Shown: positions 3,473 through 30,491 of the stretch, piece by piece
Numbering within the stretch: position 1 is the stretch's first letter
Layout of the letters: each line of letters opens with the position of its first letter
Virus record (IMG/VR): IMGVR_UViG_3300030329_004996
Coordinates: 1-30,492 of that record
Reading direction: 5' to 3' (one strand)
From: a virus
DNA: 30,492 nucleotides
The notes under the pieces: model-generated
What the model saw: only the letters and a program-made list of their open reading frames with translations
Databases searched by the model: none
Told to the model about the DNA's origin: nothing
Translations under genes and position numbers: made by a program

Positions 3473-3868
3473 TTATCCGTCAATTGAATCAAATACGATC
3501 GCAATACGATCCAGAATCTCCTTTTCTGGATCTTGTGACTTGGTTGGCAAGAGAGGAATCCTAACAATGTCTTCAGGTATTGCTTCATAGCCGTATTTTC
3601 TAAGCATTTTGCTCAGCCTTTTGATGCTGCTTTTGTTTGCTACAAAGAACTTTGAAAGAATAATCAGCTCAGATACTTTCTCAATTGCCTGCTCTTCTTT
3701 GCCTTCATCAGAAACCCAAAAGTAAGATCCGAGGATTTGCTTTCTGTCTGTCGCGACTGCTATCAGCAGCAGATGTTTTGTAGTTGATTCCAGAAAGAAA
3801 ACAACCCTATTCAGTCGAAACATTTGCCATGATTTGAGGCCGTCGATTGCTGATGCTTCAGAGTACAC
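3473..3868 (-). CDS. Unknown phage protein, 131 aa, GTG start
   Basis: The start codon is GTG (3868), chosen because AAGGAGG lies just upstream with a spacing of about 6. The N-terminal half appears beta-rich (MFRLNRVVFFLES, HLLLIAVATD, SYFWVSDEG), the C-terminal half helical (EQAIEKVSELIILSKFF, IKRLSKMLRKYG). No family was recognised and there are no metal-binding or membrane signatures. It is transcribed separately from the tail-appendage cassette: a strong reverse terminator lies upstream at 3912-3938 and an AT-rich island at 3886-3903. Confidence 0.7.
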   Translation of the reverse strand: MYSEASAIDGLKSWQMFRLNRVVFFLESTTKHLLLIAVATDRKQILGSYFWVSDEGKEEQAIEKVSELIILSKFFVANKSSIKRLSKMLRKYGYEAIPEDIVRIPLLPTKSQDPEKEILDRIAIVFDSIDG

Positions 3869-3961: not shown

Positions 3962-5788
3962 TCAGGTCAAGTAGTCAAAGATCAGGCTGTCACTGTTTGG
4001 AGCAGAGCCGAAAGTAACAGCACAAACACCACCTGATCCATCATTGGCAACCGTGTACTCTGAAGCATCAGCAGGAGAAGATCCTACCTTTTTGCATCTC
4101 ATACCATTGCGAAACACACAAACACCATCAAGAAAACTAGCATCAACAGTTCGACCGAGATCGTATTTAGTAGCACCTGATCCGGTCTGGCTTTCTGTAT
4201 ATCGACGCGCTCCGATCTTGGCGATTGTGACAGCATCGTCTTGAATTTTGGCTGTCTGAACAGCGTTAGCTCCCAGCTTTCCAGACGTGATTGCATTGGC
4301 TGAAATCGTAACAGCGCCAGAGCTAGCCATAGTAGCATCTCCTGACATAGCTGTTCCGGCTGGTCGGTTGCTTGCATTTCCCAGAAGCATTTGACCGGCG
4401 TTCAGATTGCTCAGCTTGTCCAAAATGACAGCACCGTCAGAAATTTTTGCAGACGATACAGAATTGGCCGCAAGTTGAGCACTCCCGATCCCATTTGCTG
4501 GAACTTTCAAATTATCGCCGTCAATGGTGATCGTAGACCCATCAGTACCAACAGCAAAAACACCAGACGAAGCAGTGATCCCGGCCCCAGCCATAGCAGT
4601 CGCAAGACTGGAAATAGTTTTCATCTTACTGATGTTGCTGTCCCCAGCATCAATCATCGGAAGCTTATCTGCTCCGACATCCCAGGCATCAAGGGCGGGC
4701 AGGTCGTTAAGGTTTACTTCAAACTGTCCAGAAATAGCCGCAAGTCCTGTCCCTCTCATAGCAGAAGCGACATCGGCGATACTTCCTTTTTTGCTGCTGT
4801 TGTCGCTTGCATCAATAAACGCAATGGAATCAGCAGCTACAATTGTAGCCGCTCCCAAAGTGTTGAGGTCAAGCTTTACAGCATCACCACTGACGGTAAC
4901 ACCATCAGAAGCAGAGACAGCCAGAGCCGCTCCGCCTCCTCCGGTCAGTCCGGCCCCAGCTACCGAAGTCGCAATTTTTCCGGCCGTGATCGCTGCATCG
5001 GCGATCTTAGCAGTTGAAACACCAGCCGCTTTAATGATTACATTGTTTCCAGCCAATGCTATAGAGCTGTCATCAACTGAAACCGACAGAGCAGAACCAC
5101 CACCACCTGAAAGACCGTTTCCGGCTACTGAGGTGTTCAGTTCTGTTGCTGTGATCCCTGCTGCTTTCACTTTCAAGGCATCAGATGCGATCTGAACAGT
5201 CGAATTGTCAACATTTACAGAAAGAGTGTTTCCAGTTTTGGCCAGACCGTCACCTGCTACGATCGATCCCGCTCCGCTAAACTGGGTCCAGTTCTGAGAT
5301 GCAAAACTAGAAAGTTCAGCGGTTTGGGTGAATGCTTCATTTTCGGAAGTTCCTTCTGTGATGAAAACAGCAGCACCTTGGAGTTCTGTATATGGGTCAG
5401 CATCTGTGGCCCGTGTCATTGCTGCAGCTGCACCGTTCCATACATAGATTCCATTTTGGGAGCCTGTACTTTGAGCCGTACACAGAACACGATCGCCGGC
5501 CGCAAGATTTACACCATCAAGGGCCGCGCCTGGACTGGAAAGGTTTACATTTGATCCGACTTTGACCCGACAAGAATCTTTCCAAGAAAGACCCTGTACA
5601 AGACCATCAACATACTGTTTACGCACAAGGTCATTCGCTGCAGTCGGATCTGCGTTGACGGTAGGCAGAGCAGTGAAAGCCCATACCTGATTGAGGGCCG
5701 CTTTTGCTGGGGTTACTACGGCTGAGCCGAGTTTTGAGGACGAGATCGCGCTATCTGCAATCTGATCCGATACTATACGAATAGGCAT
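3962..5788 (-). CDS. Tail fibre / appendage protein with repeated shaft motifs
   Basis: A 608-aa Ala/Ser/Gly-rich protein, almost free of Cys until the end. It is built from many imperfect repeats of the type D-x-A-I/V-T-x-x-K-I/L (e.g. SDQIADSAISSSKLG, ISDGAVILDKLS, DDAVTIAKIG) alternating with AGxGLSGGGG-type turns, typical of trimeric phage fibre shafts. The N-terminus probably attaches to the tail; the last about 75 residues form a tip domain with a YDLG start, VCVFRNGMR and a SLIFDY ending, matching the separate 89-aa protein upstream. Three - strand appendage genes lie together opposite to the tail genes. The host receptor-binding role is inferred. Confidence 0.85.
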   Translation of the reverse strand: MPIRIVSDQIADSAISSSKLGSAVVTPAKAALNQVWAFTALPTVNADPTAANDLVRKQYVDGLVQGLSWKDSCRVKVGSNVNLSSPGAALDGVNLAAGDRVLCTAQSTGSQNGIYVWNGAAAAMTRATDADPYTELQGAAVFITEGTSENEAFTQTAELSSFASQNWTQFSGAGSIVAGDGLAKTGNTLSVNVDNSTVQIASDALKVKAAGITATELNTSVAGNGLSGGGGSALSVSVDDSSIALAGNNVIIKAAGVSTAKIADAAITAGKIATSVAGAGLTGGGGAALAVSASDGVTVSGDAVKLDLNTLGAATIVAADSIAFIDASDNSSKKGSIADVASAMRGTGLAAISGQFEVNLNDLPALDAWDVGADKLPMIDAGDSNISKMKTISSLATAMAGAGITASSGVFAVGTDGSTITIDGDNLKVPANGIGSAQLAANSVSSAKISDGAVILDKLSNLNAGQMLLGNASNRPAGTAMSGDATMASSGAVTISANAITSGKLGANAVQTAKIQDDAVTIAKIGARRYTESQTGSGATKYDLGRTVDASFLDGVCVFRNGMRCKKVGSSPADASEYTVANDGSGGVCAVTFGSAPNSDSLIFDYLT

Positions 5789-6553: not shown

Positions 6554-6580
6554 GTATATTATATCAATATCAAAATATCC
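6554..6580 (-). promoter_or_regulatory. AT-rich promoter-like island of the appendage operon
   Basis: On the reverse strand it reads GATATTTTGATATTGATATAATA; TATAAT is present as a candidate -10. It lies in the 45-base gap between the exonuclease gene and the appendage operon, upstream of the 6495-6520 hairpin. Confidence 0.55.
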
Positions 6581-6596
6581 GCAATTAATCAGCAGA

Positions 6597-7199
6597 TTAT
6601 AGCAAGATCTTGATCTCATGCGGAAGAGGTCCCGGACCGTGCAAACCTAGCCACTGATGAACAAGAAAACGAGCATAGGGGTCGAAAGGATTCAAGATCT
6701 TGCAAATCTCATAGCAAGCATAAGCATCAGAATATGCGCTGTGTGGTCTATGGTTTACAAGGCCCAGAAAATCACAAACTGACTGAAGAGTAAAACTTTG
6801 TAGCCCGTATTGACTGAGTAAGGAAACAGAAAGATCTCTAGTGCAAATCCGCCGAAAGGGTACAGACTGGATCTGCTCAGAGTTCAGAATTGAGCAAAGA
6901 AATTGTCTGTCAAACCAGATGTTGTGCCCAACCAAAAGACCCGGCTCATCAAAGAAGGAGGCTATCAAATATGCGGCCTCTTCCTGAGTATTCGCATCTC
7001 TCCATTTTGATTTGCTATACCCGTTGACCTGTAGCGCTTTCGGATCTATCTCTTTGCTTTCGTCTGGTTTGATCTTGATGTCTATCTCTTTTGCGATCAG
7101 CCCTTCGCAAACCTTGATCCCACCAAACTCTATGATGCTGTTTCGCCTGTAATCCAGGCCCGTCGTCTCTGTATCGATAAAATAATAGCAAGAGGTCAT
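6597..7199 (-). CDS. DnaQ-like DEDDh 3'-5' exonuclease
   Basis: A 200-aa RNase H-fold exonuclease with all four acidic residues and the His of the DEDDh class: DTETTG at 9-14 (Asp9, Glu11), GHNIWFDRQF at 91-100 (Asp97) and HSAYSDA at 153-159 (His153, Asp158). Such enzymes remove 3' nucleotides from DNA or RNA; many phages use stand-alone copies for nucleotide recycling or repair. There is no polymerase domain. AAGGAT about 9 bases upstream of ATG 7199 is the ribosome site. It is transcribed leftward from the divergent region holding the 64-bp palindrome. Confidence 0.92.
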   Translation of the reverse strand: MTSCYYFIDTETTGLDYRRNSIIEFGGIKVCEGLIAKEIDIKIKPDESKEIDPKALQVNGYSKSKWRDANTQEEAAYLIASFFDEPGLLVGHNIWFDRQFLCSILNSEQIQSVPFRRICTRDLSVSLLSQYGLQSFTLQSVCDFLGLVNHRPHSAYSDAYACYEICKILNPFDPYARFLVHQWLGLHGPGPLPHEIKILL

Positions 7200-7214
7200 T
7201 TGTAAAAGATCCTT

Positions 7215-7278
7215 GTAAAAGAGAGGGATTCAAGTTACTATAAGCATGCTTATAGTAACTTGAATCCCTCTCTTTTAC
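7215..7278. repeat. Perfect 64-bp palindrome in the divergent intergenic region
   Basis: Bases 7215-7246 are the exact reverse complement of 7247-7278, with no unpaired centre (GCATGC in the middle). It occupies most of the 112-base gap between the leftward exonuclease gene and the rightward 7312 gene. By symmetry each strand carries TATAGT (7251-7256; reverse at 7237-7242), one base off the TATAAT consensus, 16 bases from a weak TTCAAG -35. Both promoters overlap. A regulatory switch, cruciform or replication origin are the candidate roles. Confidence 0.95.
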
Positions 7279-7311
7279 TAGGCTTAACCCCAAAATCAGG
7301 AAATTATATTT

Positions 7312-8370
7312 ATGAGAATATCTGAATATCTATATAAATATCAAGAAAAAGATATATCTTTGACAAAAGGACAGACAAGAATTGTCCGGTTGTGCTGTGA
7401 GTGGAACATCAAAGTCAGTGATCCAGTTGCTGATCTTCAGCGTGTTATTGATGCCTGTCCCGGATCCAACCTTGATCCATATTATGAATCTGTTCATATT
7501 TTCGCATGGTTCCTGAAGCTGAAAGCCGAGAACAGAGATCGGAACATCTGGCGATATCAGCCCAACAGCAGGTTTGACTTCTCTCATGCTCTCCTGTCTT
7601 GGTGGAGAAATACAAAGAGAGCCGAAGGAATGGAGCTTGCTAGCAAGAATCCACATTTCAAGCAGGCTCTGTCTTGGTTCAAATCACAGGAAGCCAAAGA
7701 CAAGAAATCAGAGCAAAAGCCCGATCTATGGTCGGAAGTCAGAAAATACCCTGATAGCCAAATATTTGCTGAAATGTCAGCAAGACGAGCAGAGTACACA
7801 GGACCAGACCTGTCTGATCGGTTCAACCTCCTTTTGGAGGCGATCGGCTATAGAAAGCTGTCTTGGTTAGAGAGCCTGGATCGGCTGATTACATTTTGGG
7901 ACCTCGGAAGAATACCGAAAGACCTGGCTGCGTTCATCAAAATAGAAAGCGATAGCCTAGAAACACCGATCCGTATTCTTCAGCAAGGTGGAACACTTGA
8001 ACGATATATGCGGCTGTCTCTTACTGGGCATGAGAATCAAGCCACAAAAGAACAAATACAGCCAGAGACAAAAGAAGACAAACCAGAAGCAAAAGAAGAA
8101 TTTGATGCTTCTGGTCTTCAGAAAGTACGAATAAAGATGCCAAATACAAGAATACCTTTCGTTGGGTGGATCCTCTCAAAAGATCAGGCTTCTTCATTGG
8201 TCCGTTTGTCTGCTCCTTTACAAAATGGTGAGAATATGGTAACTATACCTAACGAAAGGATAACTCTCATCGAGACAAAGAAGAAGGCGGCAAAGCCTTC
8301 TCCAAAACTCCAGGCTCATCTGGATAGGATCATTTATGAGCATCAACAAAGACAAAGATCTACCGCCTAA
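7312..8370 (+). CDS. Unknown protein, first gene of the rightward operon
   Basis: A 352-aa protein of unrecognised family. ATG 7312 is preceded by AGGA with a spacing of about 10. The first 240 residues look largely alpha-helical, with many Trp/Tyr and basic residues (HALLSWWRNTKRAEGM, NPHFKQALSWFKSQEAK). A Lys/Glu-rich linker at about 240-265 leads to a beta-rich C-terminus (about 270-330) that could be a small barrel, then a basic tail. No Walker, metal-binding or polymerase motif was found. Being first in the operon, next to the palindrome, it is a possible replication initiator or DNA-binding protein; this is inference only. Confidence 0.8.
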   Translation: MRISEYLYKYQEKDISLTKGQTRIVRLCCEWNIKVSDPVADLQRVIDACPGSNLDPYYESVHIFAWFLKLKAENRDRNIWRYQPNSRFDFSHALLSWWRNTKRAEGMELASKNPHFKQALSWFKSQEAKDKKSEQKPDLWSEVRKYPDSQIFAEMSARRAEYTGPDLSDRFNLLLEAIGYRKLSWLESLDRLITFWDLGRIPKDLAAFIKIESDSLETPIRILQQGGTLERYMRLSLTGHENQATKEQIQPETKEDKPEAKEEFDASGLQKVRIKMPNTRIPFVGWILSKDQASSLVRLSAPLQNGENMVTIPNERITLIETKKKAAKPSPKLQAHLDRIIYEHQQRQRSTA

Positions 8371-8575: not shown

Positions 8576-9015
8576 ACAAGACCGGAAGAAAGGGCATGCT
8601 CACGCCTGAACGATCAAAGATGATTTGCGATGCAATCAGTCTTGGAAGCACTTACAAAATAGCGGCCGGATACGCTGGTATCACAGAAAGAACCCTATAT
8701 CTTTGGCTGGCTAAAGGTGAGCGAGGAGAAGAAAACTACATTCAGTTTTTTCAGGACGTGAAGAAGGCCGAATCAAAAGGCGCTATTCAGCATCTCGGCA
8801 AGATCGTACAAGCCGCGCAAGATGGGACCTGGCAAGCTTCAGCCTGGATACTGGAGAGGAGGCACGGATATTTTAGAAACCCGGAAGTTATCCCTGTTTC
8901 GATACAGATTGATGCTGAACAGGTTTCAGTGAGCGCCTTGATCGAAGAACTGAAAACGCCGGTTGAATCACTGAAAGCGATCGACGGTCCTATTATTGAT
9001 GTGGGGGAAGAATGA
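8572..9015 (+). CDS. Terminase small subunit-like HTH protein
   Basis: A 147-aa protein with GTG start 8572 (AGGGTGA upstream). Residues about 10-48 form an N-terminal HTH, with TYKIAAGYAGITERTLYLWL as the recognition part. Then comes a helical region with the small-terminase pattern YIQFFQDVKKAES...A...LGKIVQAA..GTWQASAWILERR. Small terminases recognise the packaging site and stimulate TerL. The tail is short and acidic. The gene lies 4.1 kb upstream of terL, with five genes (three of them methyltransferases) in between, which is unusual. It overlaps the Dam-like gene by ATGA. Confidence 0.78.
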   Translation: MNKTGRKGMLTPERSKMICDAISLGSTYKIAAGYAGITERTLYLWLAKGERGEENYIQFFQDVKKAESKGAIQHLGKIVQAAQDGTWQASAWILERRHGYFRNPEVIPVSIQIDAEQVSVSALIEELKTPVESLKAIDGPIIDVGEE

Positions 9016-9764
9016 GGTTAAAACCTTTCTTTTCATATTATGGATCTAAATGGTTGACGGCTCCACACTATCCACACCCAGCAGAGGAGACAATAGTGGA
9101 GCCTTTCTGCGGGTCTGCTTGCTATTCGCTCTTGTATCCTTGGAAGAGAGTAGAGCTTTATGATCTGGATCCTTTGATCTGTTCGGTCTGGGATTATCTG
9201 ATCAACGTCTCAGAAAGAGAAATCCTCCAGCTCCCGGACCTGCTACCAGATCAGACTACAGAGGATCTCTCTGTCTCTCAGGAAGCAAAATATCTAATTG
9301 GTTTTTGGCTTCTTAATGCTGGATCAACCCCAAGAAAAATCCGGTCTTCGTTGTGGGATGGTGGAGTTTTTTGGTCTGCTAAAATCAGAAGAAGGATAGC
9401 CAGCCAGATCCACAGGATAAGACACTGGACCATAACAAACACAGATTATCGTCTCATACCCAATAAGAGAGCCACCTGGTTTATAGATCCTCCATATCAG
9501 GAGAAAGGTATCCATTACAGACACAGCTCCAAGGCGATAGAATTCCATCATCTGGCTAAATGGTCTCAAGAAAGAACAGGGACTGTAATAGTCTGCGAGA
9601 ACGATGGAGCGGAGTGGATGGACTTCTCTCCGCTTTATCAGCTCAACGGACAGAGAGGAAAGACAACGGAGAGTGTATGGATAAAAAACAATCCACAGCA
9701 AAATCTTTTTGATAATAGAGAAAGGAACAAAACAAATGAGAGCAGCAACAGAAGCAAAAGCTGA
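9012..9764 (+). CDS. Dam-like DNA adenine methyltransferase
   Basis: A 250-aa D12-class N6-adenine methyltransferase. FSYYGSK (7-13) is the N-terminal motif, VEPFCGSACYSL (29-40) the SAM-binding motif I, ELYDLDP (48-54) follows, and WFIDPPY (156-162) is the catalytic motif IV. Dam itself recognises GATC; the specificity here cannot be read from sequence, but GATC is frequent in this genome. The recognition domain (about 60-150) is smaller than in E. coli Dam. It overlaps the small terminase by ATGA and the next gene by 29 bases. Role: self-protection, or marking DNA for replication or packaging. Confidence 0.9.
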   Translation: MRLKPFFSYYGSKWLTAPHYPHPAEETIVEPFCGSACYSLLYPWKRVELYDLDPLICSVWDYLINVSEREILQLPDLLPDQTTEDLSVSQEAKYLIGFWLLNAGSTPRKIRSSLWDGGVFWSAKIRRRIASQIHRIRHWTITNTDYRLIPNKRATWFIDPPYQEKGIHYRHSSKAIEFHHLAKWSQERTGTVIVCENDGAEWMDFSPLYQLNGQRGKTTESVWIKNNPQQNLFDNRERNKTNESSNRSKS

Positions 9765-10077: not shown

Positions 10078-10094
10078 TATCAAATATCAATATA
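10071..10094 (+). promoter_or_regulatory. AT-rich ATATTAATATC island
   Basis: ATATTAATATCAAATATCAA TATAA lies in the 28-base gap before ATG 10106, next to AAGAGG as ribosome site. It is almost the same as the island at 12157-12192. Confidence 0.45.
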
Positions 10095-10105
10095 AAGAGG
10101 CAGAT

Positions 10106-10462
10106 ATGAAACTAGCGATTGAGAAAGACATCTATATACAGCTGACTGATGGAGTAGATCAAAGAGTGCTAATCTTTGCTTCCGAAATCACAGCTATCAC
10201 AGAATACAACCATGATGAAGATCCCGGGAGCACTTTGATCTATCTGTCTGGGTGCTATAGGCCGATCGTCGTGACTGAGAAATTTGATGAAGTCTGTAAA
10301 ATGATTGGCATCAAACCAGAGCAACCAAAAGAGCAGCAGAAAGAACCGCCTGATAATCTGATTAGCCTCTTCTCTGATATGGACAAACGACAGCTTAGCG
10401 CTATGAGCATTATGATTAAGAATGCTCTAACAAAATCAAGGCTGCACGATGATCCAGAATGA
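10106..10462 (+). CDS. Small protein, beta-rich N-terminus, unknown
   Basis: A 118-aa protein with AAGAGG as ribosome site. Residues about 1-60 appear to be a beta sheet (IYIQLTDG, QRVLIFASEITAITEY, STLIYLSGCYRPIVV) of the short FlbD-like / phage accessory type; then comes a Pro/Gln/Glu-rich linker and a C-terminal helix (DMDKRQLSAMSIMIKNAL). No catalytic signature. It precedes and overlaps by 14 bases the large methyltransferase gene, so it is probably cotranslated with it. Family not recognised with confidence. Confidence 0.65.
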   Translation: MKLAIEKDIYIQLTDGVDQRVLIFASEITAITEYNHDEDPGSTLIYLSGCYRPIVVTEKFDEVCKMIGIKPEQPKEQQKEPPDNLISLFSDMDKRQLSAMSIMIKNALTKSRLHDDPE

Positions 10463-12164
10463 ACAAGCGGCCGCAATTTACATGGATATTGATAGCCTTG
10501 TTCCTTGGGGTGATAATCCCCGGGACAATGATCAGGCTGTGGATGCTGTAGCCGATAGCATCAAGCGCTTCGGTTTCGGCTCTCCGATCGTAGCGCGAAA
10601 AGACGACCTAATGATCATCAAAGGCCACACCAGAAGAAAAGCAGCGATCAAGCTTGGCCTGTCAAAAGTTCCGGTTCGTCTTCTGGATATAGATTTGGTT
10701 GATGCTCAGCTCTTAGCACTTGCCGATAATAAGATCGGAGAAATAGCCGATTGGAATGATGATAAGCTTTCAGAGATCATTCACAACCTGAAAGAAGAAG
10801 AGGTTGATATATCCGGGCTTGGCTTCTCCGATGAAGAGATCGAAAGGCTGTCAGAGCTTGTTCCTGATCCTGACTGGAAAGAGTTTGATGAAGCAATCGG
10901 AGAAGGCGAACACGAAAACCAGAACCAGCACGATCAGATCCCGGATGAAGTGGAAGCCATCACTAAGCCAGGTGAGCGGGTAGACATCGGGAGACATGTT
11001 CTTCATTGTGGGGATTGTATCGAAGTGCTAAAGTCTATGCCTTCTGATTCTGTTGATGCTGTTGTTTGTGATCCACCCTATGGGATCGGCTTCATGTCTA
11101 AAGACTGGGACTGCTCTGTTCCTTCTGATGAATGGGCTACTGAATGTCTCAGGGTATTGAAACCGGGCGGGCATCTGATAGCCTTTGCGGCTACTCGGAC
11201 AATTCACCGGCTGATGATAGCTGTTGAGGATTCAGGCTTTGAGATCAGAGATATGATTTCTTGGTGCTACTTCTCAGGATTTCCGAAAAGTCTGGACGTA
11301 TCAAAAGCGATTGATAAGCATTTTGGGGTTGATAGGAAAGTGATAGGCTCAAAAAAAGGAAAGGGTGGACAAGACTTAAACGACATCATTGGAAATAAAG
11401 ATGTCGTCAGAGAAAGGGAAGAAGGCAAAGGCGGCGTGGGTGCTTATGGCATTGGAGCCAAGCAGACTCAAATTGATATACCAATTACAGCCCCAGCCAC
11501 CGAAGAAGCTAAGAAATGGTCTGGATGGGGAACAGCCTTAAAGCCAGCAGTTGAACCCGCAGTTCTCGCCCGCAAACCTCTATCAGAAAAGACTGTTGCA
11601 GAGAATGTTCTGAAGTGGGGAACTGGAGGACTTAACATTGATCGGTCAAGGTTCGGATATGGTGATCCTTGTTGGGTTGGTCCACATGGTGAGGTTGTGA
11701 ATATGGTAGGACAGAGAAGAGGAACGATCGGACACAAACTATCAGAGCAAAACATAATTAATAATACTCCACCGTCTGAACTTGGCCGATGGCCTGCTAA
11801 CCTCTTCCAATGTCCAAAAGCATCAAGATCCGAAAGGGAAGAAGGCTGTGAAGATCTGCCATCAATATCAGGAGCCGAAGCCACCGATCGAAAACCAGAC
11901 ACAGCCGGTCTGAACAATCCAAGGGCCGGAGCAGGAAGAACAGCTTCAGAGGTTCGGAACATTCACCCAACAGTCAAGCCGGTAAAGCTTATGCGATGGT
12001 TGATCGGTCTTGTCACTCCTGAAGACGGGATCGTCCTTGATACATTTGCGGGATCAGGAACTACCCTTGTCGCTGCTCAACTGGAAGAAGTGAAATCCAT
12101 CGGCATAGAAAGAGAACCGGGCTACTGTGACATCATCAGAGCAAGATTACAGTTCCATATATGA
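10449..12164 (+). CDS. ParB-domain/DNA methyltransferase fusion
   Basis: A 571-aa two-domain protein. Residues about 10-120 are a ParB-N/sulfiredoxin-like nuclease-type domain (LVPWGDNPRDN..., DDLMIIKGHTRRKAAIKLGL, LLALADNKIGEIADW). From about 180 comes a DNA N6-adenine or N4-cytosine methyltransferase: GDCIEVLKSM, VDAVVCDPPYGIGF (catalytic DPPY at 208-211) and, after a long insertion holding target recognition (about 215-515), the SAM motif FAGSGTT (533-539). Motif IV before motif I is the beta-class order. The ParB-plus-methyltransferase arrangement is known in phage and mobile-element modification genes. No partner restriction enzyme is nearby. Confidence 0.92.
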   Translation: MIQNEQAAAIYMDIDSLVPWGDNPRDNDQAVDAVADSIKRFGFGSPIVARKDDLMIIKGHTRRKAAIKLGLSKVPVRLLDIDLVDAQLLALADNKIGEIADWNDDKLSEIIHNLKEEEVDISGLGFSDEEIERLSELVPDPDWKEFDEAIGEGEHENQNQHDQIPDEVEAITKPGERVDIGRHVLHCGDCIEVLKSMPSDSVDAVVCDPPYGIGFMSKDWDCSVPSDEWATECLRVLKPGGHLIAFAATRTIHRLMIAVEDSGFEIRDMISWCYFSGFPKSLDVSKAIDKHFGVDRKVIGSKKGKGGQDLNDIIGNKDVVREREEGKGGVGAYGIGAKQTQIDIPITAPATEEAKKWSGWGTALKPAVEPAVLARKPLSEKTVAENVLKWGTGGLNIDRSRFGYGDPCWVGPHGEVVNMVGQRRGTIGHKLSEQNIINNTPPSELGRWPANLFQCPKASRSEREEGCEDLPSISGAEATDRKPDTAGLNNPRAGAGRTASEVRNIHPTVKPVKLMRWLIGLVTPEDGIVLDTFAGSGTTLVAAQLEEVKSIGIEREPGYCDIIRARLQFHI

Positions 12165-12192
12165 TATTAATATCAATATGAATATGAAAATA
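12157..12192 (+). promoter_or_regulatory. AT-rich ATATTAATATC island at the C5 methyltransferase start
   Basis: GATATTAATATCAATATG and AATATGAAAATATC repeat the island theme. It overlaps the end of the previous gene and the start of the C5 methyltransferase. Confidence 0.4.
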
Positions 12193-13170
12193 TCAAAACC
12201 CTTAACCGTTGTATCCTGCTTTGCTGGTATGGGTGGATCATCACAAGGCTACAAAGAAGCAGGTTGCAAAGTCCTTGCAATGGTTGAATGGGAAGACCAT
12301 GCCTGTCAGGTCTATAGGCTGAATCACCCAGATACAGAGATCATTCAGGCCGATATTGAAAAGCTGTCTGGATCTGAAATCCTCAGAAGGACAGGACTAA
12401 AGAAAGGAGAACTGGACATTCTGGACGGTTCTCCACCTTGTCAAGGCTTCTCTATGGTTGGAAGAAGACAGCTTGATGATCCAAGAAATAGCCTGTTTCG
12501 GTCATTCCTAAGAATAGCTGATGAGATTGATCCTAAGAATATAGTTATCGAAAATGTGGCCGGTATGATCAGGGGAAAGATGAAACCAGTTGCGGCTGAA
12601 ATAATCCGAGCACTAAAAGACAGGGGCTATCAGGTCACAGCCGGATTGATTAAAGCTATGTATTTCGGGGTTCCACAGCAAAGGCCGCGCGTCTTCTTCC
12701 TTGCTTCTAAGAACAGAAAGCCGGTATTACCTCAGCCTACTCACAGGTTCCCTGTTTCAGCCGGTAAAGCCTTAGAAGGAGTCAGAGATATATCAGGGAT
12801 CTCTGTTCCTGATATTACAGGAGAATGGAGAAGGGAATTTGTTAATAATGCCTTTCCTGGGGAAGATGGTAGGCAATACAACAGAAGAAAAATAACACGT
12901 CGCAGCCCTAATTATGGGTTTGGTTGGATAGTTAGTTCTTCAAAAGATCCAGTTTGGACTTTAATTAAAGTCCAGTGTATCTTTCATTGGGAAAAAAGAC
13001 ACTTCAACATAACCGAAGCCCTGATCCTTACAGGCTTTCCTGCTGACTACAAAATGACAGGAACATATGGTCAGTGTTGGCAAAGAATAGGAAACTCAGT
13101 AGCTCCACCAATGACCAGGGCAATAGCCCGATCTCTGATGAAGACCTATGAACAGATCTCAACTGATTAA
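12184..13170 (+). CDS. C5-cytosine DNA methyltransferase
   Basis: About 328 aa from ATG 12184 (ATG 12178 and GTG 12127 are in frame upstream; none has a clear ribosome site). Motif I CFAGMGG (12-18), motif IV GSPPCQGFS with catalytic Cys86, motif VI ENV (123-125), motif VIII QQRPRVFF (165-172) and motif X GNSVAPPM (303-310) are all present in the canonical order. Between VIII and X, the variable target-recognition domain is less like its neighbours in base use (GATC is sparse around 12840-12980) and contains a 20-bp palindrome. The site is unknown. It overlaps terL by 23 bases. Confidence 0.93.
   Translation: MKISKPLTVVSCFAGMGGSSQGYKEAGCKVLAMVEWEDHACQVYRLNHPDTEIIQADIEKLSGSEILRRTGLKKGELDILDGSPPCQGFSMVGRRQLDDPRNSLFRSFLRIADEIDPKNIVIENVAGMIRGKMKPVAAEIIRALKDRGYQVTAGLIKAMYFGVPQQRPRVFFLASKNRKPVLPQPTHRFPVSAGKALEGVRDISGISVPDITGEWRREFVNNAFPGEDGRQYNRRKITRRSPNYGFGWIVSSSKDPVWTLIKVQCIFHWEKRHFNITEALILTGFPADYKMTGTYGQCWQRIGNSVAPPMTRAIARSLMKTYEQISTD
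12955..12974. repeat. 20-bp perfect palindrome inside the C5 methyltransferase gene
   Basis: TGGACTTTAATTAAAGTCCA is its own reverse complement. It lies in the target-recognition region of the gene. Confidence 0.9.
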
Positions 13171-15067: not shown

Positions 15068-15090
15068 ATATTAATATGATATAGATATCA
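15066..15090 (+). promoter_or_regulatory. AT-rich GATAT island before the portal gene
   Basis: GATATTAATATGATATAGAT ATC lies in the 36-base gap before ATG 15104, which has only a weak ribosome site. Candidate promoter of the portal gene. Confidence 0.4.
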
Positions 15091-15103
15091 AAATGAGTGT
15101 ATT

Positions 15104-17149
15104 ATGTCAGACTTACCAGCAAAACAGCCGTTATGGATCAGCCGAATCTTTTCCTCTCTTATAAAAGGTTACGGGAAAAAAGAAGACAAGCCAACAGAAG
15201 AAAACCACGGCGCGAACTGGAACAACCCATATGGAGTAGACCCGACCTATTCACAGCAGCAAGCTTTGTATGCATATGGAGGTCATGGTTACACTTATGC
15301 AGCTGTCTCCAGATCTGCGGCTGATCTTGCGGCTCTTCCTCTAGTGCTCACATCAGGCAGGGGAAAGAGCGCCAAAATAATAGATGATAGTCCAGTGCTT
15401 GATCTGTTTGATGAGCCGTCGACAAATATGGACGGCTATCTTTTCCGGGAACAGCTCCGAACAGATCTGATGCTTTCGGGAAACTGCTATATCCTTTTGC
15501 TCGGCATATCAGAACAACCAGACTCTATTATTCGTCTTCATCCAGCCGAGGTTGAGATCGTTACTGATGAAAGATCAGGAATCACAGGATATCGTCATGA
15601 GTCAAACGGGCAGGTTGTAATCTACCCACTTGAAAGAGTTCTGCACGGAAGAAATCCAACCTATGCAAAAGGGCCGAAATCTCTTTATGGTGTGGGAGTA
15701 GTCGAGCCTCTTACCAGGGAAATAAATGCCGACATCAACGCACAAAAGCTGGCCTCAACAAGTTCAGCAAAAGGAAGGCCTGATATATTAATCCATCCAC
15801 TAGACCCGGCTGATGTTTGGGGACTGGAAAGAAGACGGGAAATCTTAGATCAATATCGTGGCCTAGCTTCAGAAGGAGGAGCAATGGTTTTGTCTGGTCA
15901 AGTTGGGATCGAACCTCTGAAGCTGACACCGAGAGAAATGGAATTTGAAGCTTCTCGGAGAATGGCCAGAGAATCAATTTCGGCCGTTTGTGGAGTCCCG
16001 CCGGTTGTGCTCGGTTTGCCTTCTGCGAACTATGCAACAGCAAGACAGCAAAACATAACCTACTGGACCAACCAGCAAAAAGCATCAAAGCGCCTGGATC
16101 ACCTTTTCACTTTAATAGCCAAAAAGTTTTCTCCTGATTATCGGATTTATCACGACTTCACAGATGTGGAGGCTTTGCAATCAGTACGTGATTCTCAGCT
16201 TCTTAGGGTTCAGCAACATATAGCAAACGGAATGAGTCCCGCAGATGCTTATAAGTATGAAAATATGGCAGATGCTCCGATTGTGACAGATTCCAGATCA
16301 AAGCCAGAAGAGGAAGTTGATACAAGATCATTAGCTATGGTCATATCGAAAACTTTAGATTACGAAGACGAAAAAAAAAAGACTTGGCATAACTGGATCA
16401 GAAGAGAGCATAGCCCACAAGAAAGAAGGCTCTACAGAGCGGCCAGGTCTTATCTGTCAGGAGCATCAAAAAGATATGCTTCCAGGCTTCGAAATGTGAT
16501 GATTTCCAAGAACATTGCAAACGGATCAGTAGTGAAAACTATTAGCGACTGGTCCGAATTGTTGGACGAAGCAGAAGAAAGAAAGAGGATACAAGCCGAG
16601 ATCGGATCAGTTTGGATTAAAGGATTCATGAACGCAGGAGCAAAAGAATTGGCCAGAATCTTCACTGATAGCAAAGCTGTACAAGGATCGATCACCTTTT
16701 CAGACTTTTCTATTCCTGGAATGATGGTTTCACAACTTGCTTCAGAGCTGATTAAAACAACTACAGAGAAAATCAGAAGAGTAGTAGAGTTCTCCCTTTT
16801 GGAAGGAGCAAGCGAAACAGAGGTTGCAGAAAGAATTTTGGCATCAAAGACTTTTGATAAAGCCAGAGCCTCTTTGATAGCGAGAACAGAAGCAACCCGC
16901 TCCCTAAATGCAGCCAAAATCAGAGCCGGACAAATAGCTGTAGGCGAAGGTCTTGGAGTCAGAAAGCAGTGGGTCACTGAAAATGACGACAAAGTGAGAG
17001 AAGAACATGTTCTTCTGGATGGTCAAACAGTTATGCCCGATGATGTCTTTGAGGTCGCCGGAATGACAGCGCCTGGACCTGGGCAGTTTGGTGAATCTTC
17101 AATGGACTGCAATTGTAGGTGTATGGTTTTGACGGTAGTGATCAAATAA
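15104..17149 (+). CDS. HK97-type portal fused to a MuF-like minor head domain
   Basis: A 681-aa protein. Residues about 50-400 are an HK97-family portal: AYGGHGYTYAAVSRSAADLAAL, a conserved LMLSGNCYILLL segment, HPAEVEIV, and at the end CGVPPVVLGLPSANYATARQ with the post-stem region (to about 400). After a Lys/Glu-rich linker (about 410-430) a second, basic helical part leads to a MuF / SPP1 gp7-type C-terminus: SLIARTEATRSLNAAKIRAGQ, WVTENDDKVREEH, MDCNCRCMV (about 594-677). In most siphophages these are separate genes. A run of ten A at 16371-16380 lies exactly at the linker. Confidence 0.92.
   Translation: MSDLPAKQPLWISRIFSSLIKGYGKKEDKPTEENHGANWNNPYGVDPTYSQQQALYAYGGHGYTYAAVSRSAADLAALPLVLTSGRGKSAKIIDDSPVLDLFDEPSTNMDGYLFREQLRTDLMLSGNCYILLLGISEQPDSIIRLHPAEVEIVTDERSGITGYRHESNGQVVIYPLERVLHGRNPTYAKGPKSLYGVGVVEPLTREINADINAQKLASTSSAKGRPDILIHPLDPADVWGLERRREILDQYRGLASEGGAMVLSGQVGIEPLKLTPREMEFEASRRMARESISAVCGVPPVVLGLPSANYATARQQNITYWTNQQKASKRLDHLFTLIAKKFSPDYRIYHDFTDVEALQSVRDSQLLRVQQHIANGMSPADAYKYENMADAPIVTDSRSKPEEEVDTRSLAMVISKTLDYEDEKKKTWHNWIRREHSPQERRLYRAARSYLSGASKRYASRLRNVMISKNIANGSVVKTISDWSELLDEAEERKRIQAEIGSVWIKGFMNAGAKELARIFTDSKAVQGSITFSDFSIPGMMVSQLASELIKTTTEKIRRVVEFSLLEGASETEVAERILASKTFDKARASLIARTEATRSLNAAKIRAGQIAVGEGLGVRKQWVTENDDKVREEHVLLDGQTVMPDDVFEVAGMTAPGPGQFGESSMDCNCRCMVLTVVIK
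16371..16380 (+). promoter_or_regulatory. A10 run at the portal/MuF boundary (candidate slippage site)
   Basis: Codons 423-426 read GAA AAA AAA AAG. One extra A would give KKKDLA and a stop, making a 429-aa portal only; one fewer A gives a stop after about 39 residues. Either would yield the portal domain without MuF. Poly-A runs of this length promote transcriptional slippage. Equally, the run may be a sequencing-error risk. Confidence 0.4.
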
Positions 17150-17160
17150 TTCTAATTGTT

Positions 17161-17185
17161 AAAATATTTATATATATATAGATAT
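17161..17185 (+). promoter_or_regulatory. AT-rich upstream element of the capsid promoter
   Basis: AAAATATTTATATATATATAG just upstream of the -35 fits an UP-like element or the shared AT-island theme. Confidence 0.4.
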
Positions 17186-17214
17186 TTGACAAATACGATC
17201 CATAAATGTATTCT
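17186..17214 (+). promoter_or_regulatory. Sigma70-like promoter of the protease/capsid unit
   Basis: TTGACA (17186-17191), 17-base spacer, TATTCT (17209-17214). It is the best match to the consensus in the window. The predicted start near 17221 is directly at the ribosome site AAGGTGG (17221-17227), giving a very short leader to ATG 17232. An AT-rich island precedes it. Confidence 0.75.
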
Positions 17215-29336: not shown

Positions 29337-29702
29337 TTAGATTGTGTACATAGCCCATTTAGCTATCTTGATTTCTGGCAAGTTGTGAAGAGCAGCCTGA
29401 AGAGCAGACAGATCAGACTTCATAGAAATGATCTTCTGATCGTTTCCACGATAAGCCCATCTTTCTTCAGCAAGCTTGATAGCCGTTTGGCCAACTTTTC
29501 CATGCATATATGCTTTTGAAATATCAATGAAGGGACTTTCTATTTTGAAGCACCATTCTAGATCAAGAGCTTTGATTAGATCTTGATCGTAGTTTCCAGC
29601 GTCAAGCCAGGCTTCTGATTTGCGAACCAAGTAGCGAAGAGCAACCAGTCTAGCTTCGATTTCTTTGGCGGTGGATTTTACTGGATTTGTCTTGATAGTC
29701 AT
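29337..29702 (-). CDS. Small protein, unknown (121 aa)
   Basis: The frame is open to 29750, but ATG 29702, preceded by ACGGAG with 6-base spacing, is the better start. The protein looks helical: KEIEARLVALRYLVRKSEAWLDAGNYD, IKALDLEWCFKIES, and SALQAALHNLPEI. No metal-binding site or membrane span; family not recognised. It has its own transcription unit, with its leader being repeat copy A (29703-29863) and a U9 terminator at the end. Located beside a second independent small gene with a matching leader, it may be an early or accessory host-takeover protein. Confidence 0.7.
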   Translation of the reverse strand: MTIKTNPVKSTAKEIEARLVALRYLVRKSEAWLDAGNYDQDLIKALDLEWCFKIESPFIDISKAYMHGKVGQTAIKLAEERWAYRGNDQKIISMKSDLSALQAALHNLPEIKIAKWAMYTI

Positions 29703-29863
29703 TTTTTCTCCGTTTGGGTGTTTTAGAGTGTTCATTAACTCTATATACATAATATCATATATTAGAGCATTTATCTAAGAAATCGACATTTAAACCCCAA
29801 ATAAGGCTATTTTTCTCTGCTTTTTACTAGATGGGTGATCGTAGGCGGATCCTTTCAGAAAAT
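29703..29863 (-). repeat. Promoter/leader repeat, copy A
   Basis: This 161-base stretch is a highly similar direct repeat of 30145-30317. Shared parts are the ribosome site region CTCCGTTTGGG, an ATATATGATATTAT core, a block with ATGTCGATTTCT, and a perfect 32-base block at 29832-29863 matching 30286-30317. It contains the whole region before the 121-aa gene start, so it likely carries its promoter and 5' leader. Confidence 0.85.
29742..29768 (-). promoter_or_regulatory. Core ATATATGATATTAT element, copy A
   Basis: On the reverse strand it reads CTCTAATATATGATATTATG and contains an interrupted palindrome of CTCTA/TAGAG arms. Candidate -10/operator for the 121-aa gene. Confidence 0.5.
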
Positions 29864-30144: not shown

Positions 30145-30317
30145 TTTGTTTCTCCGTTTGGGGGTTTTGAGTTCTTCATTAACTCTATATATATAATATC
30201 ATATATTAGAGCCTATGTCTTAGAAATCGACATTTAAACCCTAAAAAAGGCCAAATAAGGCTATTTTTCTCTGATTCTTCCTAGCTGGGTGATCGTAGGC
30301 GGATCCTTTCAGAAAAT
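30145..30317 (-). repeat. Promoter/leader repeat, copy B
   Basis: This 173-base repeat of 29703-29863 has a small insertion (12 bases longer). Between the leftward 78-aa gene and the rightward micro-protein at 30343 it is the divergent promoter region. The 32-base perfect block lies at its far end (30286-30317), close to the right-hand promoter. Confidence 0.85.
30184..30211 (-). promoter_or_regulatory. Core ATATATGATATTAT element, copy B
   Basis: On the reverse strand CTCTAATATATGATATTATA; nearly identical to 29742-29768. Candidate -10/operator for the 78-aa gene. Confidence 0.5.
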
Positions 30318-30342: not shown

Positions 30343-30450
30343 ATGATCTATCATTGTAACGATTGCGAACATTCAGAAGAATGGCCTGAAGGGTCTGAAG
30401 ATGTGATCTGTATAAAATGCGGATCTAGTATGTACTCTGATAAAGGTTGA
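30343..30450 (+). CDS. 35-aa zinc-ribbon micro-protein
   Basis: ATG 30343 is preceded by AGGGGA (spacing 5-6) and the frame ends TGA at 30448-30450. Two cysteine knuckles (CNDC at 5-8 and CIKC at 23-26) give a Cys4 zinc ribbon of nearly the whole protein. The gene is the first of the + strand cluster that continues at 62 after circularisation. Such micro-proteins often bind host proteins or nucleic acid. It is too short to be classified further. Confidence 0.75.
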   Translation: MIYHCNDCEHSEEWPEGSEDVICIKCGSSMYSDKG

Positions 30451-30491
30451 AAAGATGACTTGGCTTTATACATTAGTTGGGGGATTGATAG
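30394..30491. repeat. Right copy of the contig-end overlap
   Basis: Identical to 1-98. The genome should be closed here; the last base 30492 differs from 99, which may be a read error or a real minor variant. Confidence 0.9.

Follow-up and report, generated by a model that had tools for sequence, protein, structure and literature searches.

The stretch of viral DNA analyzed in this study (IMG/VR record IMGVR_UViG_3300030329_004996, positions 1 to 30,492; hereafter the window) contains a perfect palindrome of 64 bp at positions 7215-7278, which raises the question of what such an element does in a phage genome. Its two 32-bp arms meet without a spacer, 7215-7246 being the exact reverse complement of 7247-7278, as had been noticed in a preliminary description of the sequence; allowing one mismatch, the inverted repeat extends to 36-nt arms (72 bp, 7211-7282). 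The preliminary description interpreted the palindrome as two symmetric divergent promoters and listed a replication origin, an operator for a symmetric dimer and a hairpin-telomere site as alternatives.

Gene-family searches identified the window as a tailed-phage genome that encodes HK97-type head proteins, a portal, TerS and TerL, together with three DNA methyltransferases; they revealed no polymerase, helicase, primase or integrase. Positions 1-98 and 30394-30491 are identical over 98 bp, and the contig is therefore a circular or circularly permuted phage genome of approximately 30.4 kb. The palindrome was correctly placed by the first reading in a divergent gap, 7200-7311, where a minus-strand block ending at dnaQ meets a plus-strand block starting at P352. 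The dnaQ gene (6597-7199, minus strand), with its start codon 15 bp from the palindrome, encodes a DnaQ/RNase T-like 3'-5' exonuclease (Pfam RNase_T, 9.6e-24; PHROG DNA polymerase exonuclease subunit, 1.1e-34). On the other side, approximately 30 bp (33 bp) away, starts the gene for P352 (7312-8370, plus strand), a protein of 352 aa for which no significant relative was found in Pfam, PHROG, NCBIfam or PDB. P352 was modelled twice with AlphaFold; both models were of low confidence and gave no significant fold match and no catalytic-domain match; the protein is predicted, at a pLDDT of 67, to be mostly helical with a C-terminal SH3/KOW-like barrel.

A palindrome of 64 bp is far beyond chance. 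In 20 first-order Markov shuffles, the longest spacerless arms were 6-10 nt, and the second-longest perfect palindrome in the window has arms of 12 nt. Among 1.93 Mb of other phage DNA (199 loci), arms longer than 18 nt were found only in the related element of contig L008 described below and in a fold-back at the end of contig L083. The latter, L083:1-98, is a perfect 98-bp palindrome that coincides with the terminus of a viral contig of 39 kb; it may have arisen by fold-back during assembly or be a genuine hairpin end. The window also carries a perfect 21-nt inverted repeat at 3848-3868 and 4053-4073, with 184 nt between its arms. The earlier remark that palindromes of such length are often selected against was overstated; in E. 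coli, palindromes become strongly unstable only at lengths well above 100 bp.

Homologues of P352 were detected in only two IMG/VR contigs besides the window, L001 (63% identical over the aligned part) and L008 (37% identical). No relatives were found in species genomes, phage records or plasmids, and TerS and alignment-guided P352 searches returned no fourth member. It had been suggested that conserved palindromes be looked for upstream of homologues of the gene at 7312, and one is present in both contigs: a perfect 64-bp palindrome at L001:7896-7959, and at L008:3483-3544 a 62-bp element with 29-bp arms around the 4-nt centre TAAG. Hence 3 of the 3 phages with a P352 gene have a perfect or near-perfect palindrome of 62-64 bp beside it. 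The L001 and L008 palindromes have unique flanks on each side, different from those of the window. Because different palindromes (64 and 62 bp) occur at the homologous place in these independent contigs, a fold-back assembly error in the window can in practice be dismissed. The L001 element has no dnaQ-like gene beside it, and another gene lies to its left at a distance of 193 bp; the palindrome therefore travels with P352 and not with dnaQ.

The three elements, the only sequences of this kind known (n = 3), were aligned without gaps and their base pairs counted. All 29 shared pairs were Watson-Crick in all three phages; 16 of these 29 had changed between phages, in each case on both arms, with no one-sided change. 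These pairing and covariation values were unmatched in 500 shuffles, and slid registers paired at only 31-45%. No part was free except the 4-nt centre and the outer boundary of the L008 element. When folded as single strands, all three elements formed one long hairpin, with z scores of -14 to -15 against shuffles. Conservation of the sequence itself was limited to TCA-N-GTTACTA-N12-TAGTAAC-N-TGA, whose invariant columns define a left half-site, TCAAGTTACTA (conserved TCANGTTACTA), at 7230-7240 on the plus strand and a right half-site of the same motif at 7253-7263 on the minus strand, with 12 bp between the GTTACTA and TAGTAAC cores. Since the pairs covary while only this block is conserved in sequence, two things appear to have been kept: a half-site of about 11 bp, and perfect self-complementarity over some 30 bp per arm. 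The earlier argument that retention of the palindrome implies function gains support from this comparison, as perfect pairing was kept in both known relatives while the sequence diverged, which points to functional retention. A host or prophage element was also considered and rejected, the conserved pattern being present in no species genome searched.

Template switching between the arms of an inverted repeat is a known way of keeping them identical (PMC8794818, PMC8604942), and selection might therefore act on less than the full stem. The half-sites alone could suffice for an ordinary operator or origin function, and the rest of the stem would then be a by-product of homogenization. Two observations argue against this: nowhere else in approximately 1.9 Mb of phage DNA has an inverted repeat become perfect over such a length, and the three phages, although diverged, have elements of one size (62-64 bp); we consider an unselected stem rather improbable. 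Template switching is, on the other hand, compatible with the palindrome being an origin core, as the mechanism of its maintenance.

The two promoters proposed in the preliminary description were then compared among the phages. TATAGT is indeed present at 7251-7256 and 7237-7242, each copy 16 bp from a TTCAAG. At the same offsets, however, the -10 hexamer reads ATTAGT in L001 and TGTAGT in L008, so that the A at position 2 is lost in both relatives, and the -35 hexamer reads ATCAGG and GTCACG, respectively. A scan for consensus promoters found none inside the palindrome of the window, L001 or L008, and symmetric divergent sigma-70 promoters were thus not upheld. Because the hexamers vary and the conserved block does not coincide with them, the promoter model does not account for what is conserved; matched changes at arm positions 14-31 are likewise left unexplained, as is perfect pairing at variable positions far from the half-sites. 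Better promoter-like matches lie in the AT-rich stretch next to the palindrome, at 7332-7303 and L001:8027-7998, both pointing left. In a broader form, the element would be a symmetric switch starting the leftward and rightward units, to which RNA polymerase would bind in either orientation and which a symmetric regulator, perhaps P352 itself, would also occupy. Such a switch would suit an element that fills the sole divergent gap and lies 15 and 33 bp from the two start codons, with half-sites conserved in dyad symmetry; moreover, pseudo-symmetric bidirectional promoters are common in prokaryotes and occur in E. coli (PMC12825309). The latter resemble the present element in their symmetric position between divergent genes and in possible two-way engagement of RNA polymerase, but here the hexamers are not conserved and pairing far outside them is. 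An operator with several sites is not indicated, no further exact copy of the half-site being present elsewhere in the window, and in L001 the leftward unit begins with another, more distant gene. A simple operator would account for the half-sites; perfect pairing would be left unexplained unless it is maintained by template switching alone. An operator for a dimer is possible in view of the conserved half-sites, and since both start codons are so close, a regulatory role in addition to another function is also possible; as the main function of the palindrome, a promoter or operator seems unlikely to us.

Covariation of this kind is typical of RNA stems, and the palindrome might act as a transcribed hairpin of 30 bp, either a bidirectional terminator or insulator or a leader that is stabilizing or processed by RNase III. 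Terminator-like matches (a stem followed by a T-run) were found on both strands in the window and L001, and the leftward promoter-like matches mentioned above are strong and would put the palindrome in a leader. The L008 element, in contrast, has a poor T-run and is terminator-like on one strand only. Other features also speak against an RNA element: not one G-T (G-U) pair occurs in the 87 cells of the three-phage alignment, the placement is divergent and not convergent, the half-sites are conserved in sequence with dyad symmetry, and the window has no Rfam match at gathering thresholds. We regard this explanation as improbable. A search of viral contigs for GTTACTA-N12-TAGTAAC gave, among the matches listed, the same phage, chance matches and a palindrome in L094. 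This near-perfect 50-bp palindrome with the same core (L094:3449-3498, in a 212-kb viral contig) is similar to the present one and might be cited in favor of a terminator, as it sits between a DHFR-like gene and a convergent gene and is probably a two-way terminator. It was judged unrelated to the P352 element.

An A+T-rich stretch of 60 bp (7301-7360; 15% GC) follows the palindrome and overlaps the start of P352; its low GC content and the GC skew make it a candidate DNA unwinding element. Corresponding stretches are present in L001 (at 7984) and L008 (at 3565), and in 3 of the 3 phages this stretch, immediately 3' of the palindrome, is one of the two 60-bp spots with the lowest GC content in the contig. 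The probabilities of such a placement beside the palindrome were 0.5%, 1.1% and 1.2% for the three phages. The cumulative GC-skew minimum of the window falls at 7297, between the palindrome and the AT-rich stretch, a value to be read with the caveat that gene orientation, on which skew depends too, reverses at this very point. Some other genes also begin in AT-rich tracts, and that at 17136-17195 (17144) is as AT-rich as 7301-7360. Tracts of this kind, built of words similar to AATATC/GATATT, recur at gene starts and in gaps (672-706, 6556-6578, 10083-10111, 12159-12198, 15074-15096 and 17162-17193); they may represent an unusual kind of leader or promoter. No DnaA boxes were found near the palindrome, and no tandem array lies beside it, the only repetition being two copies of GAATATCT at 7316-7331.

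Comparison with syntenic relatives, whose TerL proteins are 57-63% identical to that of the window, showed what may occupy the same position. To the right of dnaQ, L018, L019, L022 and L025 have iteron-like tandem repeats, and immediately after these comes the stretch where GC content is lowest in the contig. The repeats are 22 bp × 3.8 in L019 (5356-5439; AT window at 5432), 22 bp × 2.7 in L022 (4709-4777; 4795), 11 bp × 5.8 in L025 (1317-1380; 1436) and 11 bp × 4.7 in L018 (3343-3394; 3438). These four were picked out after inspection, and by the same criteria L011, L013, L016 and L026 have no array plus lowest-GC stretch. In L019 and L022, the gene that contains the array and AT stretch matches HTH_36 and phage replication initiation proteins. 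This is exactly the anatomy of ori-lambda, in which O-binding iterons and then a 40-bp A+T-rich region are located in the O gene (PMC5043065). The palindromes of the window, L001 and L008 would, by position, take the place of the iterons, and P352 that of the initiator. The likeness is positional, homology between P352 and the O-like initiators of L019 and L022 being undetectable. With P352 as a candidate initiator, the window would share with ori-lambda the location at an initiator gene and inverted-repeat sites for a symmetric initiator, and like ori-lambda it has an A+T-rich stretch beside these sites (PMC5043065). It differs in that tandem iterons are absent: where ori-lambda has several iterons of 19-22 bp within the gene, the window has one 64-bp palindrome upstream of it. 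The presumed initiator is, moreover, unrelated in sequence to O-like proteins.

Of the alternatives listed at first, a replication origin is now the best supported, and we infer, from the features described above, that the palindrome is probably the initiator-binding, hairpin- or cruciform-forming core of the phage origin. Our confidence in this is moderate, because three sequences are compared, the P352 models are weak, AT tracts occur elsewhere, the iteron-bearing relatives were chosen post hoc and four relatives are without the pattern. P352 would be the initiator, of a family without known relatives, and as a dimer or tetramer would recognize the two TCANGTTACTA half-sites. The adjacent AT-rich stretch would then melt, allowing the helicase and polymerase to load; these are presumed to be those of the host, because none was seen in the searches of this genome, nor was a primase. 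With less certainty, the arms may at some stage form a hairpin or cruciform, a transition that the AT-rich DNA next to them would favor; this most simply explains why pairing is perfect outside the half-sites as well. The 4-nt centre of the L008 element, which is free, is consistent with a hairpin loop, and Bowater et al. in 1991 reportedly found that AT-rich flanking DNA promotes cruciform extrusion. During replication, template switching between the arms would keep them identical. The element may also control expression of P352 and dnaQ, as initiator binding sites often do.

A long palindrome between the two arms of a genome is also the anatomy of the telomere resolution site telRL, which makes this the most interesting rival of an origin. 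At such a site, circularized DNA would be cut and closed into hairpins by a resolvase, here P352 or another protein. In the telomere phages N15, PY54 and P840, which are siphoviruses, a large palindrome divides the genome into two arms and the gene of the enzyme adjoins it (PMC10612081); the window has a palindrome so placed, next to a gene and likewise in a siphovirus, and perfect arms fit hairpin copying. These phages differ from the window in the enzyme, however. The preliminary description had reported no protelomerase, and our searches agree with it: the ResT-TelK catalytic domain (PF16684; control detected) and the tyrosine recombinase domain (PF00589) each matched in 0 of the 3 contigs (window, L001 and L008). 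The P352 models, helical with a small barrel, likewise gave no catalytic-domain match, the centre of the L008 element is not palindromic, and no linear-plasmid partition or repressor genes were recognized in the window, where the palindrome has instead an AT-rich stretch and an initiator-slot context. The hairpin-telomere alternative is thereby weakened, and we consider it very improbable.

The proposed origin was also compared with those of other mobile elements. The RepA origin of the Vibrio satellite PLE similarly lies in a non-coding region and has inverted-repeat sites for the element's own initiator (PMC7145576), but it consists of direct repeats (iterons) with 3-13-bp sub-repeats and uses a RepA_N initiator, whereas the window has a single palindrome and no RepA_N match. 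In rolling-circle plasmids, at the origins of pT181 (RepC) and pC221 (oriD), an inverted repeat is extruded as a cruciform with the initiator (PMC9180970, PMC5775427), as would be the case here; their initiators, unlike P352, are nicking Rep proteins, and P352 matches no such family. Whether the phages described here represent a new type of origin is a more tentative matter. In such a type, a perfect palindrome of 62-64 bp, maintained by copying between its arms and forming a cruciform beside an AT stretch, would have displaced the iteron and O-like module together with the new initiator family P352; this appears possible but doubtful. If it is true, a phage lineage has replaced its complete origin module of iterons and O-like initiator by a single long palindrome and an unrelated initiator, and an initiator family absent from current libraries would be added. 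The three versions, with the same pairing and different letters, would then offer a clean natural test of structure versus sequence recognition at an origin. The concerted changes of their arms clearly exemplify how perfect pairing can persist while sequences diverge over a long time.

Further features were observed elsewhere in the window. The three methyltransferases, in a phage of 30 kb, are a D12-like enzyme (9012-9764), a ParB_N-like domain fused to an N6/N4 DNA methyltransferase (10449-12164) and, adjoining this fusion, a C5 methyltransferase (12127-13170). An imperfect direct duplication of approximately 170 bp (29702-29863 and 30146-30317; 87-92% identical, spacing 444-454 bp) lies in the non-coding end region, and a 49-bp direct repeat, 94% identical, is present at 1206-1254 and 1696-1744, the copies being 490 bp apart.
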